A DNA stretch of 64,000 bases from Zhongshania marina (GTDB lineage Bacteria > Pseudomonadota > Gammaproteobacteria > Pseudomonadales > Spongiibacteraceae), in assembly GCF_002915595.1 (NCBI RefSeq), contig NZ_PQGG01000010.1:69501-133500 (forward strand). The letters run 5' to 3'. Positions 57,009 to 60,553 of this stretch are shown here, piece after piece. Positions within the stretch are counted from its first letter, which is position 1. Each line of letters opens with the position of its first letter. Both the position numbers and the translations under genes were made by a program. A model generated the notes under the pieces. That model was not told the DNA's origin and did not search any database. It was given only the letters and a program-made list of their open reading frames with translations.

Positions 57009-57194
57009 TTACTTCTTATCAGCGCCACATTTAGCTTCGCCGCACTTACCTTCTTTAGCAGCTTTGTCTGCGCCGCACTTCGCTTCGCCACACTTGCCTT
57101 CTTTCGCCGCTTTATCTGCACCGCACTTGGCTTCGCCACACTTACCTTCGGTAGATTTTTTCTCAGCGCCACACTTCGCTTCGCCGCATTTGCC
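57009..57194 (-). repeat. Tandem repeat encoding EGKCGEAKCG units
   Basis: The 3' part of the HvfA-like gene consists of four copies of an approximately 48-base unit with near-identical DNA sequence (16 residues each, the last shortened). Internal duplication is the likely origin, and copy number may vary between strains. Confidence 0.85.
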
Positions 57195-57338
57195 TTCTGC
57201 GTCTTTTGCGTAATCAGCAAGCTGATAGCCGCTGCTCATTACTTTCGCCGCAAAGGGGTTGGTATCTGCAACGGCAACTGAAGCCATTGAAGACGCTAGC
57301 ATGGCCGCACCGAGGGCCGTCATCGCAGTATTTTTCAT
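57009..57338 (-). CDS. hvfA: HvfA-type (EGKCG repeat) secreted metallophore precursor peptide
   Basis: A 109-residue precursor. An N-terminal Sec signal peptide (cleavage near VAVAD, residue 24) is followed by TNPFAAKVMSSGYQLADYAK, the conserved leader of HvfA-like proteins, and then four tandem units of EGKCGEAKCG with AEKKST or ADKAAK spacers. The eight cysteines (51, 56, 67, 72, 83, 88, 99, 104) are the only ones. In characterised relatives (HvfA, bufferins) the EGKCG cysteines are turned into oxazolone/thioamide or related copper-binding groups by HvfB (MNIO, DUF692) with HvfC. Those enzyme genes are not adjacent here. AAGGTG precedes the ATG. Divergent from the DoxX gene. Confidence 0.87.
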   Translation of the reverse strand: MKNTAMTALGAAMLASSMASVAVADTNPFAAKVMSSGYQLADYAKDAEGKCGEAKCGAEKKSTEGKCGEAKCGADKAAKEGKCGEAKCGADKAAKEGKCGEAKCGADKK

Positions 57339-57423
57339 TGTGTCATCACCTTATTTAATAAATTAAAAGATCAAATTGGCCGCTTTAGGGCGACGCTGCC
57401 TATAAGAGAATCAACAATCCAAA

Positions 57424-57489
57424 GTGTTACATCACAGAGAAAATAAATTTATTCCACGTGATGTGTAACAAGATTTATCGCTACACGTC
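57424..57489. promoter_or_regulatory. Divergent regulatory region with ECF-type promoter motif
   Basis: Toward the DoxX gene, TGTAAC (57464-57469) is followed after exactly 16 bases by CGTC (57486-57489), the form of an ECF sigma promoter. Toward the HvfA-like gene GTAACAC occurs on the minus strand (57424-57430), with no equally good -10. The two -35-like motifs are embedded in an inverted repeat (TGTTACATCAC facing GTGATGTGTAACA). An ECF sigma gene lies about 780 bp downstream, so control of this divergon by it is likely. Confidence 0.6.
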
Positions 57490-57568
57490 TTAAGGCATGA
57501 ACATGCACCACGATTACCGTCAGCAAAGAACAGTTGCGCAATCGTGACCTCTATACGGAGCAAACCCC

Positions 57569-58180
57569 ATGGTAGATTTTTTTAGCAAAATTCGCGGTCT
57601 ACTCGACACGCTTGGTCGACTGGCAACACCACTTGACGGCCTACCCGCCTTGGCGCTGCGCCTATATTTGGTGCCGGTATTTTGGATGGCCGGCAGTAGT
57701 AAAATGATGCATTTTGCCGATACTGCGCAATGGTTTGGCAATAGCGACTGGGGGCTTGGGCTTCCCTTTCCCTACCTGATGGCCTTTCTGGCAACAGCAG
57801 CGGAGCTCGGCGGCGCCGTATTGTTACTGCTGGGCTTGGCGACCCGCTGGATTTCTATTCCACTGGCGGTAACCATGATTGTTGCAGCCACCACCGTACA
57901 TTGGCATAACGGCTGGCAAGCCATTGCCGACGCCAGCGCACCCTTTGCGAATGAGCGCGTCGTCGATTCTGTTGAAAAACTATCTGCCGCCCGCTCGCTA
58001 TTGGAAGCCCACGGCAACTACGACTGGCTAAGTTCCAGCGGCAATTTTGTGGTACTAAACAATGGGATTGAATTCGCGGTCACTTACTTAGTCATGCTGT
58101 TGGCACTGATAACGATGGGTGGCGGTAGATATGTCAGCGCGGATTATTGGCTGTATCGCGCATTTAACAAGGCCAAATGA
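57569..58180 (+). CDS. DoxX family membrane protein (HvfX-like)
   Basis: A 203-residue inner-membrane protein with four main hydrophobic segments. PALALRLYLVPVFWMAGSSKM is the DoxX start, then GLPFPYLMAFLATAAELGGAVLLLLGLATRW, LAVTMIVAATTVHWHNGWQAI and a final helix near TYLVMLLALITMGGG. DoxX proteins with an extra loop of this kind recur in HvfA/bufferin loci and are called HvfX there; the role (perhaps redox or quinone-linked) is unknown. ATG with CGGAGC upstream. It is divergent from the HvfA-like gene and precedes the ECF sigma gene by 91 bp. Confidence 0.88.
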   Translation: MVDFFSKIRGLLDTLGRLATPLDGLPALALRLYLVPVFWMAGSSKMMHFADTAQWFGNSDWGLGLPFPYLMAFLATAAELGGAVLLLLGLATRWISIPLAVTMIVAATTVHWHNGWQAIADASAPFANERVVDSVEKLSAARSLLEAHGNYDWLSSSGNFVVLNNGIEFAVTYLVMLLALITMGGGRYVSADYWLYRAFNKAK

Positions 58181-58271
58181 GCAATTAATTTAGACGCTAA
58201 TGCAGTGAACAGTTGCCTGCAGGCAGTGGGATCAGAGACACTTAGGACTTAATCATAGTTTGGATTAATCT

Positions 58272-58886
58272 GTGTCTCAGCCCATCGACGATCAACAGCT
58301 TATTGCCCGCCTCAAAACTGGGGATAATTTAGCCTTTAAAGAGCTCATTAGCCGCTATCATCAAAAGCTGCTCATTGTAGCGAGGGCGATCGCCGGTGAC
58401 GTATTTGCAGAGGATGTCACTCAAGAGGCGTGGGCATCGATCTACAAAGCGATTGGCAAATTTGAAAGTCGCTCCAGTCTGTCTACGTGGATGATTCAGA
58501 TTGTGAGCAATGAGGCGAAATCGCGACTGCGTCGCGAAAAACGCCACAGCAGTTTTGGCGACATCGACGAGGTGCGTCCAGAAATTGATGCAGAATGCTT
58601 TAACGACAACGGCCACTGGGTGAACCCACCCTCGCACTGGGATATTAATACACCAGAGCTGATGCTTCAGGAGGATCAATTAAGACACTGTATTGAACAC
58701 ACTTTGACGCTATTGCCCGAAAACCAAAAAGCAGTATTTTTACTGCGTGATGTTGAGCAAGCCAGTTTGGAGGAAATTGCCGACCTGCTAACGCTCAGCG
58801 AGGCCAATGTCCGAGTGATTCTGCACCGTGCGCGATTGCAACTTATGAAAATCATTAACCATTATCAGGAGACCGGAGAATGCTGA
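58272..58886 (+). CDS. ECF-type RNA polymerase sigma factor
   Basis: A 204-residue extracytoplasmic-function sigma factor. Region 2: FKELISRYHQKLLIVARAIAG, DVFAEDVTQEAWASIYKAI and SSLSTWMIQIVSNEAKSRLRR; region 4: LLPENQKAVFLLRDVEQASL then EEIADLLTLSEANVRVILHR. The linker (about residues 95-135) is longer than the minimum. GTG start with weak ribosome-binding sequence. It overlaps the zinc-finger anti-sigma gene by 7 bp, a classical sigma/anti-sigma pair, and lies downstream of the DoxX gene, so it probably regulates the HvfA-DoxX divergon. Confidence 0.93.
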   Translation: MSQPIDDQQLIARLKTGDNLAFKELISRYHQKLLIVARAIAGDVFAEDVTQEAWASIYKAIGKFESRSSLSTWMIQIVSNEAKSRLRREKRHSSFGDIDEVRPEIDAECFNDNGHWVNPPSHWDINTPELMLQEDQLRHCIEHTLTLLPENQKAVFLLRDVEQASLEEIADLLTLSEANVRVILHRARLQLMKIINHYQETGEC

Positions 58887-59131
58887 ACTGCAAGCAATTT
58901 ACCGATCTAGCCAGCGATCATATCGACCTCCAGCGCACCGGCTGGAAACGTGTTGAGATTCGTTTGCACCTGATGATTTGTCGCCACTGCCGACGTTTTA
59001 GTCGTCACCTCGACCGCAGTCGCCAAACAGGTGCCGCTATTGCCGAACAACTTTGGCGCAGCGATTCAGAGCAGAGCGAGGCGATTTTTTCGAAAATCAT
59101 TCCGTCACCACCAAGTGACAAAGCCCCGTAA
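58880..59131 (+). CDS. Small zinc-finger anti-sigma factor
   Basis: An 83-residue protein with a ZAS-like zinc site: an early Cys (C4 in MLNCKQF) and HLMICRHC, giving the H-x3-C-x2-C spacing of anti-sigma zinc fingers. There is no transmembrane segment, so it should be a soluble cytoplasmic sensor, of the kind that releases its sigma factor on metal or thiol stress. The ATG overlaps the sigma gene by 7 bp with GGAG upstream. The basic C-terminal half (FSRHLDRSRQTGAAIAEQLW) is unassigned. Confidence 0.85.
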   Translation: MLNCKQFTDLASDHIDLQRTGWKRVEIRLHLMICRHCRRFSRHLDRSRQTGAAIAEQLWRSDSEQSEAIFSKIIPSPPSDKAP

Positions 59132-59151: not shown

Positions 59152-60387
59152 CTAGGCCGCAGGCAAATACACTCTGAATTCAGCGCCTGCGCCTTCATCA
59201 CCAAGCAGCTTCACTCGACCTTCGTGCTCGTCGAGTATGCGCCGACAAATTGCCAAGCCAATGCCGTTACCCTCGTACTCCTGCTCATTGTGCAAACGCT
59301 CAAAGACCCCAAAAATACGGTTGCTATACTGCCTAGCAATGCCGATGCCGTTGTCGCGAATATAAAATCCAAACTCGCCACTGTCGCAGTCGTCAAGGCT
59401 GCCAAACTCAATTTTAGGCGACTCTTGGTCGCGACTAAATTTAATCGCGTTTTCTAATAGCTCCGATATCAACTTGCTCAAATGTCCAATTGGCACCCTG
59501 ACATTGGCATTAAATGTGTCTCTCTGCAGAACTATATTGTATTTTTTCAGGTCGGTTTCGTTTTGTGAAATCGCTTGCTCTAAAGCCTCATCAAGTGATG
59601 CCGGAGTCACATCGGCGACGGTTTGCAGCAGCGAGTATTCACGCAAATCATCAATCATCGATGTGGTACGTTTAGCCGAGGTCACCATCATGCTCAACCA
59701 TTTTTCTTCGTCTTCTGCCAAACGATCGTTTAAACGGTCTGCCAATAATTCACCAAATACGGCAATGGAACGCAGCGGCTCTTTGATGTCCCGCGAGGTA
59801 ACCATCGCATATTGCTCTAGAGCTGTGTTTGAGCGCTCGAGCGAGGCATGATTCTGCTCCAGCAGGGTCTTCATAACTCGCGTTTCAGCAAGCTCATCGG
59901 TACGCTCATCTACTACTTGGCGCAGATCCCGCGACAAGCGCTCTACTTCTGCGCGCTGTTTAATATTATCCGCCACCTCGTCGCGCAGCTTCTGATTCAA
60001 GTCCAGTAATTGCTGATTGCTGGGTATTGCCAAGGCTTTTGGAATCAAAGGCCACACTACGATAGCCGTGCCCACCGAGGCAATCGCGGTAATTAATTTC
60101 ACAATACCGCTCAGCCAATAAGCGCCGTGCCAAACATTAAAAATATTGATGAGGTGGGTCGCGCCGCAGGCGAAAATAAAAATCGCAAACATCACGAACA
60201 TAAAATTAAATTTTAAGTCTTCGCGTTTGCGGACTAGGTACACCAAGGCAACCGGAATGGTGAAGTAGGCTATGGTAATGAGTACATCACTGGTGACATG
60301 CAAACGCACTAAGTCATCGTTCCACAGATAACAATGCCCATGCGGCGGCATTTCTGGGCCCAGCAAGAAGTTCATAAAATCTGACAT
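59152..60387 (-). CDS. Ethylene receptor (ETR1)-like membrane sensor kinase lacking the phosphoacceptor histidine
   Basis: A 411-residue membrane protein. After MPPHGHCYLWNDDLVRLH come three helices homologous to the ethylene-binding domain: D34, Y41, I44, P45, I71, C74 and H78 match ETR1 D25, Y32, I35, P36, I62, C65 and H69 with a constant offset of nine. A coiled coil (about 125-190) leads to a dimerisation domain whose H-box reads VTSRDIKEPLR: arginine R199 (codon at 59791-59793) replaces the histidine. The ATPase domain is intact: N-box ELLENAIKFS, DNGIGIA and GNGIGLAI. ATG at 60387 is preferred to a GTG eight codons upstream. No response regulator is adjacent. Confidence 0.9.
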   Translation of the reverse strand: MSDFMNFLLGPEMPPHGHCYLWNDDLVRLHVTSDVLITIAYFTIPVALVYLVRKREDLKFNFMFVMFAIFIFACGATHLINIFNVWHGAYWLSGIVKLITAIASVGTAIVVWPLIPKALAIPSNQQLLDLNQKLRDEVADNIKQRAEVERLSRDLRQVVDERTDELAETRVMKTLLEQNHASLERSNTALEQYAMVTSRDIKEPLRSIAVFGELLADRLNDRLAEDEEKWLSMMVTSAKRTTSMIDDLREYSLLQTVADVTPASLDEALEQAISQNETDLKKYNIVLQRDTFNANVRVPIGHLSKLISELLENAIKFSRDQESPKIEFGSLDDCDSGEFGFYIRDNGIGIARQYSNRIFGVFERLHNEQEYEGNGIGLAICRRILDEHEGRVKLLGDEGAGAEFRVYLPAA

Positions 60388-60553
60388 GTCAGTAATCCAT
60401 TTTTTGTACACGTGTATTCGTGTTGCCTTCGAGGCAATAGCCTACGAATTCAAATACACAGTTATATCAAGCTAAACGCCAATGCAACACTGTGAATTTC
60501 ACTTAGGCCAGTCTAAATCTGTGATATTCCGGCCTTTCTAGAGGCTGTTCACG

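Follow-up and report, generated by a model that had tools for sequence, protein, structure and literature searches.

Can an ethylene-type receptor go on signalling after its kinase domain has lost the phosphoacceptor histidine? The question is raised by a gene on the minus strand of a 64,000-nucleotide stretch of Zhongshania marina DNA, the whole of which is called the window below. The gene occupies 59152..60387 and encodes 411 aa when read from the ATG at 60387, the start for which the coordinates and strand in the first-pass annotation are right; an alternative GTG at 60411, eight codons upstream of the ATG, would give a product of 419 aa.

The receptor and its phosphoacceptor position

All parts of the receptor are encoded on the minus strand. 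Residues 26-121 (60025..60312) form an ETR1_N membrane domain, matched by Pfam PF25487 with 130.6 bits and E 2.6e-38 against a cut-off of 27. A helical linker follows (residues 122-192; 59812..60024), and a low-confidence AlphaFold2 model places helices at 125-159 and 166-200. The DHp (HisKA) domain is taken as residues 193-262 (59602..59811), where the Pfam HisKA score of 28.9 bits barely exceeds the cut-off of 26.9, and the HATPase (CA) domain as residues 263-411 (59155..59601), with an HATPase_c match of 73.5 bits and E 2.4e-20. Neither a GAF nor a PAS domain is matched by Pfam. The structural model is weak (mean pLDDT 60.8, pTM 0.46, most of the membrane part below 50) and was used solely to check the DHp/CA fold; these two domains take the usual fold in it, and ZraS, RpBphP2, HK853 and DivL are among the structure matches. 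Judged by its sequence, the window protein is an ETR1_N receptor-like sensor.

The sensor site is complete. The first-pass annotation had listed D34, Y41, I44, P45, I71, C74 and H78, which we take to be the full list of the seven ETR1 ethylene-site residues as matched to this receptor; all seven are present and, together with K97, are identical in 24/24 aligned sequences (its own included). Of the ETR1 residues, D25, C65, H69 and K91 are described as belonging to the ethylene site or helix 3 in the excerpted text of PMC11819568, and seven residues as required for ethylene binding in that of PMC6682694.

The kinase half lacks the HisKA phosphoacceptor histidine. The codon at 59791..59793 is CGG, and the resulting Arg199 faces the histidine of solved kinases, as in the alignment of TSRDIKEPL here with ASHDIKEPL of the RpBphP2 kinase 8f71. 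Apart from R199 the H-box (RDIKEPLR) is intact, and the N, G1 and G2 boxes are all present, just as the first-pass annotation had read them. The N-box Asn313 (59449..59451) is invariant in 12/12 His-less receptors of the genus, as are D345, N346, G347 and G349 of the G1 box D345-N-G-I-G349 (59341..59355). In the G2 box G373-N-G-I-G377 (59257..59271), N374 is fixed among the receptors with Arg at the H position and is T, S or R in the nine His-bearing relatives of the family. The sequence supports the earlier proposal that the protein cannot autophosphorylate at the usual place and has probably kept its ATP binding.

Histidine loss in the genus and beyond

Each of 18/18 genus genomes, the window's included, carries one full-length receptor orthologue with no internal stop. 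The residue at the H position is Arg in seven of them (again including the window's), His in six, Glu in three, Asp in one and Tyr in one. All three receptors of the sister genus have His; the 18 genus genomes and these three are together called the family here. The seven Arg species use the codons CGG, CGG, CGT, CGT, CGA, AGA and CGA, four synonymous codons in all, so the codon in the window is not a sequencing error, and a single-strain mutation is ruled out on the same ground. The comparison with homologues that the first-pass annotation had proposed thus finds Arg in the nearest species and His, Tyr, Glu or Asp in more distant members of the genus. Of the three Arg pairs measured, two have saturated synonymous sites and the third has a dS of 0.60; since Arg has been retained over such distances, it is maintained and more than inherited. 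Besides R199, the Arg group has fourteen fixed positions that none of the nine His-bearing family relatives shares. The annotation had also raised the possibility of a compensating histidine close by, which we could reject, as no histidine in the linker or DHp domain is common to all seven Arg proteins.

The number of losses was assessed with a receptor tree built without the H-box and with a tree of rpoB (19/21 family genomes; G013 and G019 gave no rpoB match and were left out). On the receptor tree the His-bearing trio G001, G004 and G014 is sister to the Arg group (support 99/95), and the Tyr, Glu and Asp proteins lie on a separate branch (support 87/87). A single clade of His-less genomes is rejected on rpoB (AU test, p 8e-63), whose tree gives three losses, and a single clade of His-less proteins is rejected on the receptor without the H-box (p 0.015); the sensor and linker by themselves do not reject it (p 0.098). 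On the receptor tree it takes equally few steps to lose His once, early, and regain it in the trio. Because a single His-less clade is rejected on both the receptor without the H-box and rpoB, His was lost at least twice in the genus, unless it was regained in the trio.

Outside the family such losses are rare. Samples of 293 genomes of the order, 369 of the class and 398 of the phylum gave 64 ETR1_N matches over the cut-off outside the family, of which 63 were read (a 48-aa fragment in G894 and sub-cut-off matches were excluded). Among the 50 kinase-type proteins in this set, 49 have the H-box histidine (47 by H-box pattern and two, L117 and L118, by eye), as against 12/18 His-less receptors in the genus. 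The sole exception, L194 of genome G068, is short, keeps an HATPase_c match (E 9.5e-20) and has Asn at the His position (ANELNSPL), a further independent loss of His. The other 13 of the 63 are without a kinase: Pfam finds none in L158, L159, L160, L163, L176, L181, L189 and L197, and five proteins of 148-203 aa (L082, L089, L186, L191 and L196) were judged kinase-less by length. We considered L163 as a degenerate kinase; Pfam does not support this, and the kinase-type total stands at 50, not 51.

Two other ETR1_N proteins deserve mention in their own right. L161 (G054) is short and keeps its histidine (AHELNTPL), with an HATPase score of 29.1 against a cut-off of 26.4, and its ATP boxes look eroded by eye. 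L057 (G010:C1:1521732-1522016) is the second ETR1_N protein of the Tyr-type genome; read by eye as ETR1_N-PAS-PAS-GGDEF, it would join an ethylene-type sensor to cyclic-di-GMP synthesis.

Selection on the kinase half, receivers and the neighbouring copper locus

If the kinase half no longer mattered, its sequence should drift. In the closest Arg pair dN/dS is 0.035 overall, 0.083 in the CA domain and 0.021 in the DHp domain; overall values are 0.051 for the Glu pair and 0.053 for the His pair. Over the two close His-less pairs the CA domain ranges from 0.035 to 0.083 and the DHp domain from 0.021 to 0.071. With such values and no stop inside any of 18/18 copies, decay into a pseudogene can be set aside, and the receptor, as far as its sequence tells, has lost its phosphoacceptor yet is kept under selection. 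Across the 12 His-less proteins 12/149 CA columns are invariant, and they include N313, D345, G347, G349, G373, G375 and G377 (hypergeometric 3e-9, or 1e-10 with N346 counted, for a residue set that was named after looking). ATP boxes kept with the phosphoacceptor gone form the pattern expected of a working pseudokinase, although folding could be the sole reason why the ATP-box glycines persist. Slightly better than even is the chance that we give to our preferred reading: the protein is predicted to be a selectively maintained receptor pseudokinase, dead in phosphotransfer and still ATP-binding. A signalling pseudokinase, as the first-pass annotation had suggested, remains the best reading because the usual autophosphorylation is lost, ATP binding is predicted and selection has kept the protein.

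The alternative with most in its favour, itself unlikely, is a vestigial kinase: the receiver has been lost, the catalytic half is drifting and only the membrane domain is still of use, for instance as a sink for copper or ethylene. It would account for a sensor far more conserved than the kinase half in the His-less set (68/115 invariant columns, against 12/149 in CA; the DHp domain has 3/70), for the strongly diverged DHp domain of the Glu/Asp group and for the lack of a single-domain receiver near any genus receptor. Low dN/dS in both kinase domains, invariant ATP boxes, an Arg fixed through four codons and the absence of internal stops all speak against it. Rates relative to the sensor are 4.4 (CA) and 3.0 (DHp) in the Arg group, not above the 7.8 and 4.1 of its His-bearing sister, though higher than in the deep His group (2.2 and 2.1); the Glu/Asp group reaches 6.5 and 9.1. 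The Arg group therefore has no relaxation beyond its His-bearing sister, and the DHp domain changes fast in Glu/Asp. The excess of the Arg group over the deep His group and the high Glu/Asp ratios fit relaxation as well as retooling.

A cognate response regulator gene near a histidine kinase gene is usual, not required. Among ETR1_N receptors of the HDxxxPLR type outside the family, a comparison set picked after looking, the next gene is a single-domain receiver on the same strand in 15/15 loci examined in the phylum: 12 from a first set (Pfam confirmed all 10 scanned) and three added later (L269-L271). The first set comprised 22 loci, namely these 12, six of other types, L177 without a result and three of the sister genus; L184 and L188 stop at contig ends. 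The receptor and receiver frames overlap in 8/12 loci, a count that depends on the first ATG being taken as the start. Receptors of other types (L165, L166, L175, L178, L179 and L192) have no receiver as the next gene; the gene after L272 encodes a large receiver-bearing protein, and no receiver comes after L273. Within the family a single-domain receiver is the next gene in 0/18 genus loci, and a receiver lies directly next in 0/3 sister-genus loci. A tblastn search with 13 receivers, which covered some 8 kb on either side of all 18 genus receptors (for the window's genome, up to the window's end 3.6 kb upstream), found only receiver domains inside larger upstream kinases, in 11 genomes.

A candidate receiver does exist in part of the family. 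In the sister-genus genome G018 it lies 2.2 kb from the receptor, past two genes on the opposite strand, and in the other two sister-genus genomes it occurs at 84-88% identity, at a similar distance and on the receptor's contig. Its reciprocal best matches, from a search at E 1e-14, lie in G001 and G004. That search missed G014, whose 69% identical copy was found with the G001 copy as the query. In this trio the receiver is an orphan single-domain gene between queF and a conserved hypothetical gene (L234/L235, L241-L243), at C1:2174117-2174521 in G001, and the receiver tree joins the sister-genus and genus groups with support 97/92 on a long branch. At E 1e-9 neither the 12 His-less genomes nor the three deep His-bearing ones (G011, G012 and G015) gave a match. 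The flanks of the queF site are common to the other genus genomes, without the receiver; since the receiver occupies this site in the His trio only, insertion there explains the pattern as well as loss elsewhere.

Receiver presence follows the histidine in raw counts, 6/9 His genomes against 0/12 His-less ones in the family (Fisher 0.0015) and 3/3 against 0/12 at the shared receptor locus described below (Fisher 0.0022), with genomes that are related in both comparisons. Two independent comparisons are well supported (three on all branches), a number with which a sign test cannot reach significance; receiver absence tracks His loss in one supported comparison, with no difference in the other. 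The two losses are not one-to-one, because G011, G012 and G015 are without the receiver yet His-bearing. The co-occurrence is suggestive and rests on very few independent lineages.

These data bear on a quite improbable alternative, in which the DHp domain, with no need of the His, would still hold on to a response regulator and, as the ligand dictates, sequester or dephosphorylate it. The otherwise intact H-box around R199 would suit such a role, and the excerpt of PMC4211667 describes a precedent in DivL, which binds DivK~P while acting as neither kinase nor phosphatase. Against it, none of the 12 His-less genomes yields a match to the sister-genus receiver, whether searched with that protein at E 1e-14 or with the G001 copy at E 1e-9, and the Asp-type H-box is destroyed (DQYGVAVK). 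Many HisKA phosphatases have Thr or Asn at the position that here is Glu203, and the His-bearing sister group has the same Glu.

Beyond its stop codon the receptor converges on a group of genes. A zf-HC2 anti-sigma factor gene (58880..59131, plus strand) ends 20 bp from the stop codon, preceded by an ECF sigma factor gene (58272..58886, plus), by a gene for an HvfX/DoxX-type copper-RiPP maturation protein (57569..58180, plus; NF050144, E 1.7e-71) and by one for an HvfA-type RiPP metallophore precursor with KCGExKCG repeats (57009..57338, minus; NF050137, E 1.5e-31), which scores 51.3 with the whole-length HvfA model, under its cut-off of 95. Window positions 57009-59131 thus look like a putative bufferin-like copper-RiPP (HvfA/HvfX) locus with an ECF sigma/anti-sigma pair; Pfam finds no MNIO (DUF692) enzyme among nine neighbours. 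Bufferin clusters are reported to include sigma factor and DoxX genes, and Buf_EGKCG precursors are counted among RiPPs (PMC12452194, in excerpt).

One conserved receptor locus is found in 15 genus genomes and houses all 12 His-less receptors. The ECF sigma and HvfX genes adjoin the receptor in 14/15 of them, G017 (Glu) being without both, and the HvfA motif was not found near the receptor in G010, G016 and G017. As the receptor adjoins a copper-RiPP locus, copper is a possible ligand, and a copper role is worth testing because the ETR1-type site holds Cu(I), according to the excerpt of PMC11819568; the shared position is weak evidence for such a role. We give little credence to the stronger version, in which the receptor is a copper-sensing regulator of the HvfA/HvfX locus, acting through the sigma/anti-sigma pair, and ethylene is not its ligand. 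The 20-bp spacing, the strong HvfX and HvfA matches, the recurrence of the arrangement and the Cu(I) site favour it; the convergent orientation means no shared operon, some loci lack the genes as listed above, and three His-bearing relatives share the locus too, which may be mere synteny.

Farther upstream, about 5-8 kb from the receptor, two kinase genes stand in conserved order, one for a hybrid kinase and one for a REC-PAS kinase (L058-L074). In the 15 shared-locus genomes both occur in 11, one in two (G001 and G004) and none in G014; the window ends short of this position. We set these kinases aside as in-locus partners, as their shared position with the receptor may be synteny. The nearest kinases by sequence in the window's genome are L025 (31%) and L028 (30%), both with the H-box HDLQEPLR, which are candidate dimer partners only.

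A kinase that uses a different nucleophile, either another His or a Ser/Thr as claimed for plant subfamily 2, is the least probable alternative and hardly credible: the ATP site is kept and tobacco NTHK1 is reported to act as a Ser/Thr kinase (PMC3611092, in excerpt), but the seven Arg proteins share no linker or DHp histidine.

Proposed mechanism and known systems

The pseudokinase reading can be put as a chain of steps, each of them conditional. Binding of the ligand, which could be either ethylene at Cu(I) or the Cu(I) ion, would alter the membrane helices, and the linker would pass this change on to the DHp/CA module. The ATP-dependent shape of that module would then act, through protein binding, on a partner encoded elsewhere in the genome; candidates are a second sensor kinase, a response regulator or a regulator of some other kind. 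The receptor would release no phosphate and would act by contact, as the pseudokinase DivL does in Caulobacter. That the partner is a kinase, as the first-pass annotation proposed, is at most plausible; the genome of the window encodes no further ETR1_N protein. A wider reading, which we hold tentatively and at somewhat less than an even chance, is that an ethylene-type receptor was converted two or three times within the genus from a histidine kinase with a receiver into a phosphotransfer-dead, ATP-binding signalling protein, beside an ECF-sigma copper-RiPP locus to which it perhaps reports copper or ethylene.

If true, bacteria would provide a natural counterpart, as yet unfinished, to the shift of plant receptors to His-kinase-independent signalling. 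Plant ethylene receptors signal mostly without histidine kinase activity (PMC11819568, in excerpt), and the transition from a bacterial-type kinase to a plant-style receptor is hard to study in plants. One genus that holds the same receptor with His, Arg, Tyr, Glu and Asp, mostly in a shared gene neighbourhood, allows a side-by-side comparison, and the candidate receiver, present in only some His-bearing species, adds to the natural series. Such a series could test the role of a receptor pseudokinase and whether ATP binding alone carries a gas or copper signal. In the open-licence literature we found nothing on Zhongshania histidine kinases; among the open-licence matches listed for bacterial ethylene receptors and for pseudo- or degenerate histidine kinases the case is unreported, and none of those listed for ethylene receptors together with bacterial pseudokinases concerns a bacterial ethylene-receptor pseudokinase by its title or the start of its abstract.

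The closest bacterial systems are SynEtr1 (slr1212) and AzoEtr1, which, as excerpted in PMC11819568, also join a three-helix ETR1_N domain to a histidine kinase output domain. AzoEtr1 D35, C75, H79 and K98 correspond to D34, C74, H78 and K97 here. SynEtr1 relies on its histidine kinase activity and passes phosphate from its His to slr1213, and AzoEtr1 is predicted to act alike (PMC11819568, same excerpt), whereas no His is available here; AzoEtr1 further has a PAS domain and slr1212 a GAF domain, and the window receptor has neither, nor an adjacent receiver.

Plant subfamily 2 (ETR2, ERS2 and EIN4) likewise combines an ethylene-type sensor with a diverged kinase domain, and in the available part of PMC3611092 ETR2 and ERS2 are without the His and EIN4 keeps it; an ethylene receptor can therefore work with a diverged kinase domain. 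The parallel that the first-pass annotation drew with this subfamily holds as an analogy and fails as membership: Pfam matches no GAF domain in the window receptor, and the extra N-terminal membrane helix is absent on reading the sequence, with just 25 residues before ETR1_N. The ATP-site boxes are also kept here, and the bacterial losses of His, which fall within one genus, arose separately from those in plants.

DivL of Caulobacter is nearer in its kinase half. It has a non-His residue (Tyr) at the phosphoacceptor position, conserved among homologues, on a kinase fold re-used for protein binding (PMC4211667, in excerpt), and DivL 4q20 is among the sequence matches (E 1.9e-4) and structure matches (rank 23) of the window receptor. 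It differs in its PAS sensor and its Tyr, where the window receptor has ETR1_N, Arg and no PAS match; DivL binds ATP weakly, according to the same excerpt, and the window receptor keeps all ATP-site residues. A further case is ChrS of Corynebacterium glutamicum, a laboratory-evolved, kinase-dead sensor that still promotes signalling, via HrrS (PMC9491836, in excerpt). There, a laboratory frameshift removed the CA function and the His is not relevant; here, the His loss is natural and the CA domain is kept.
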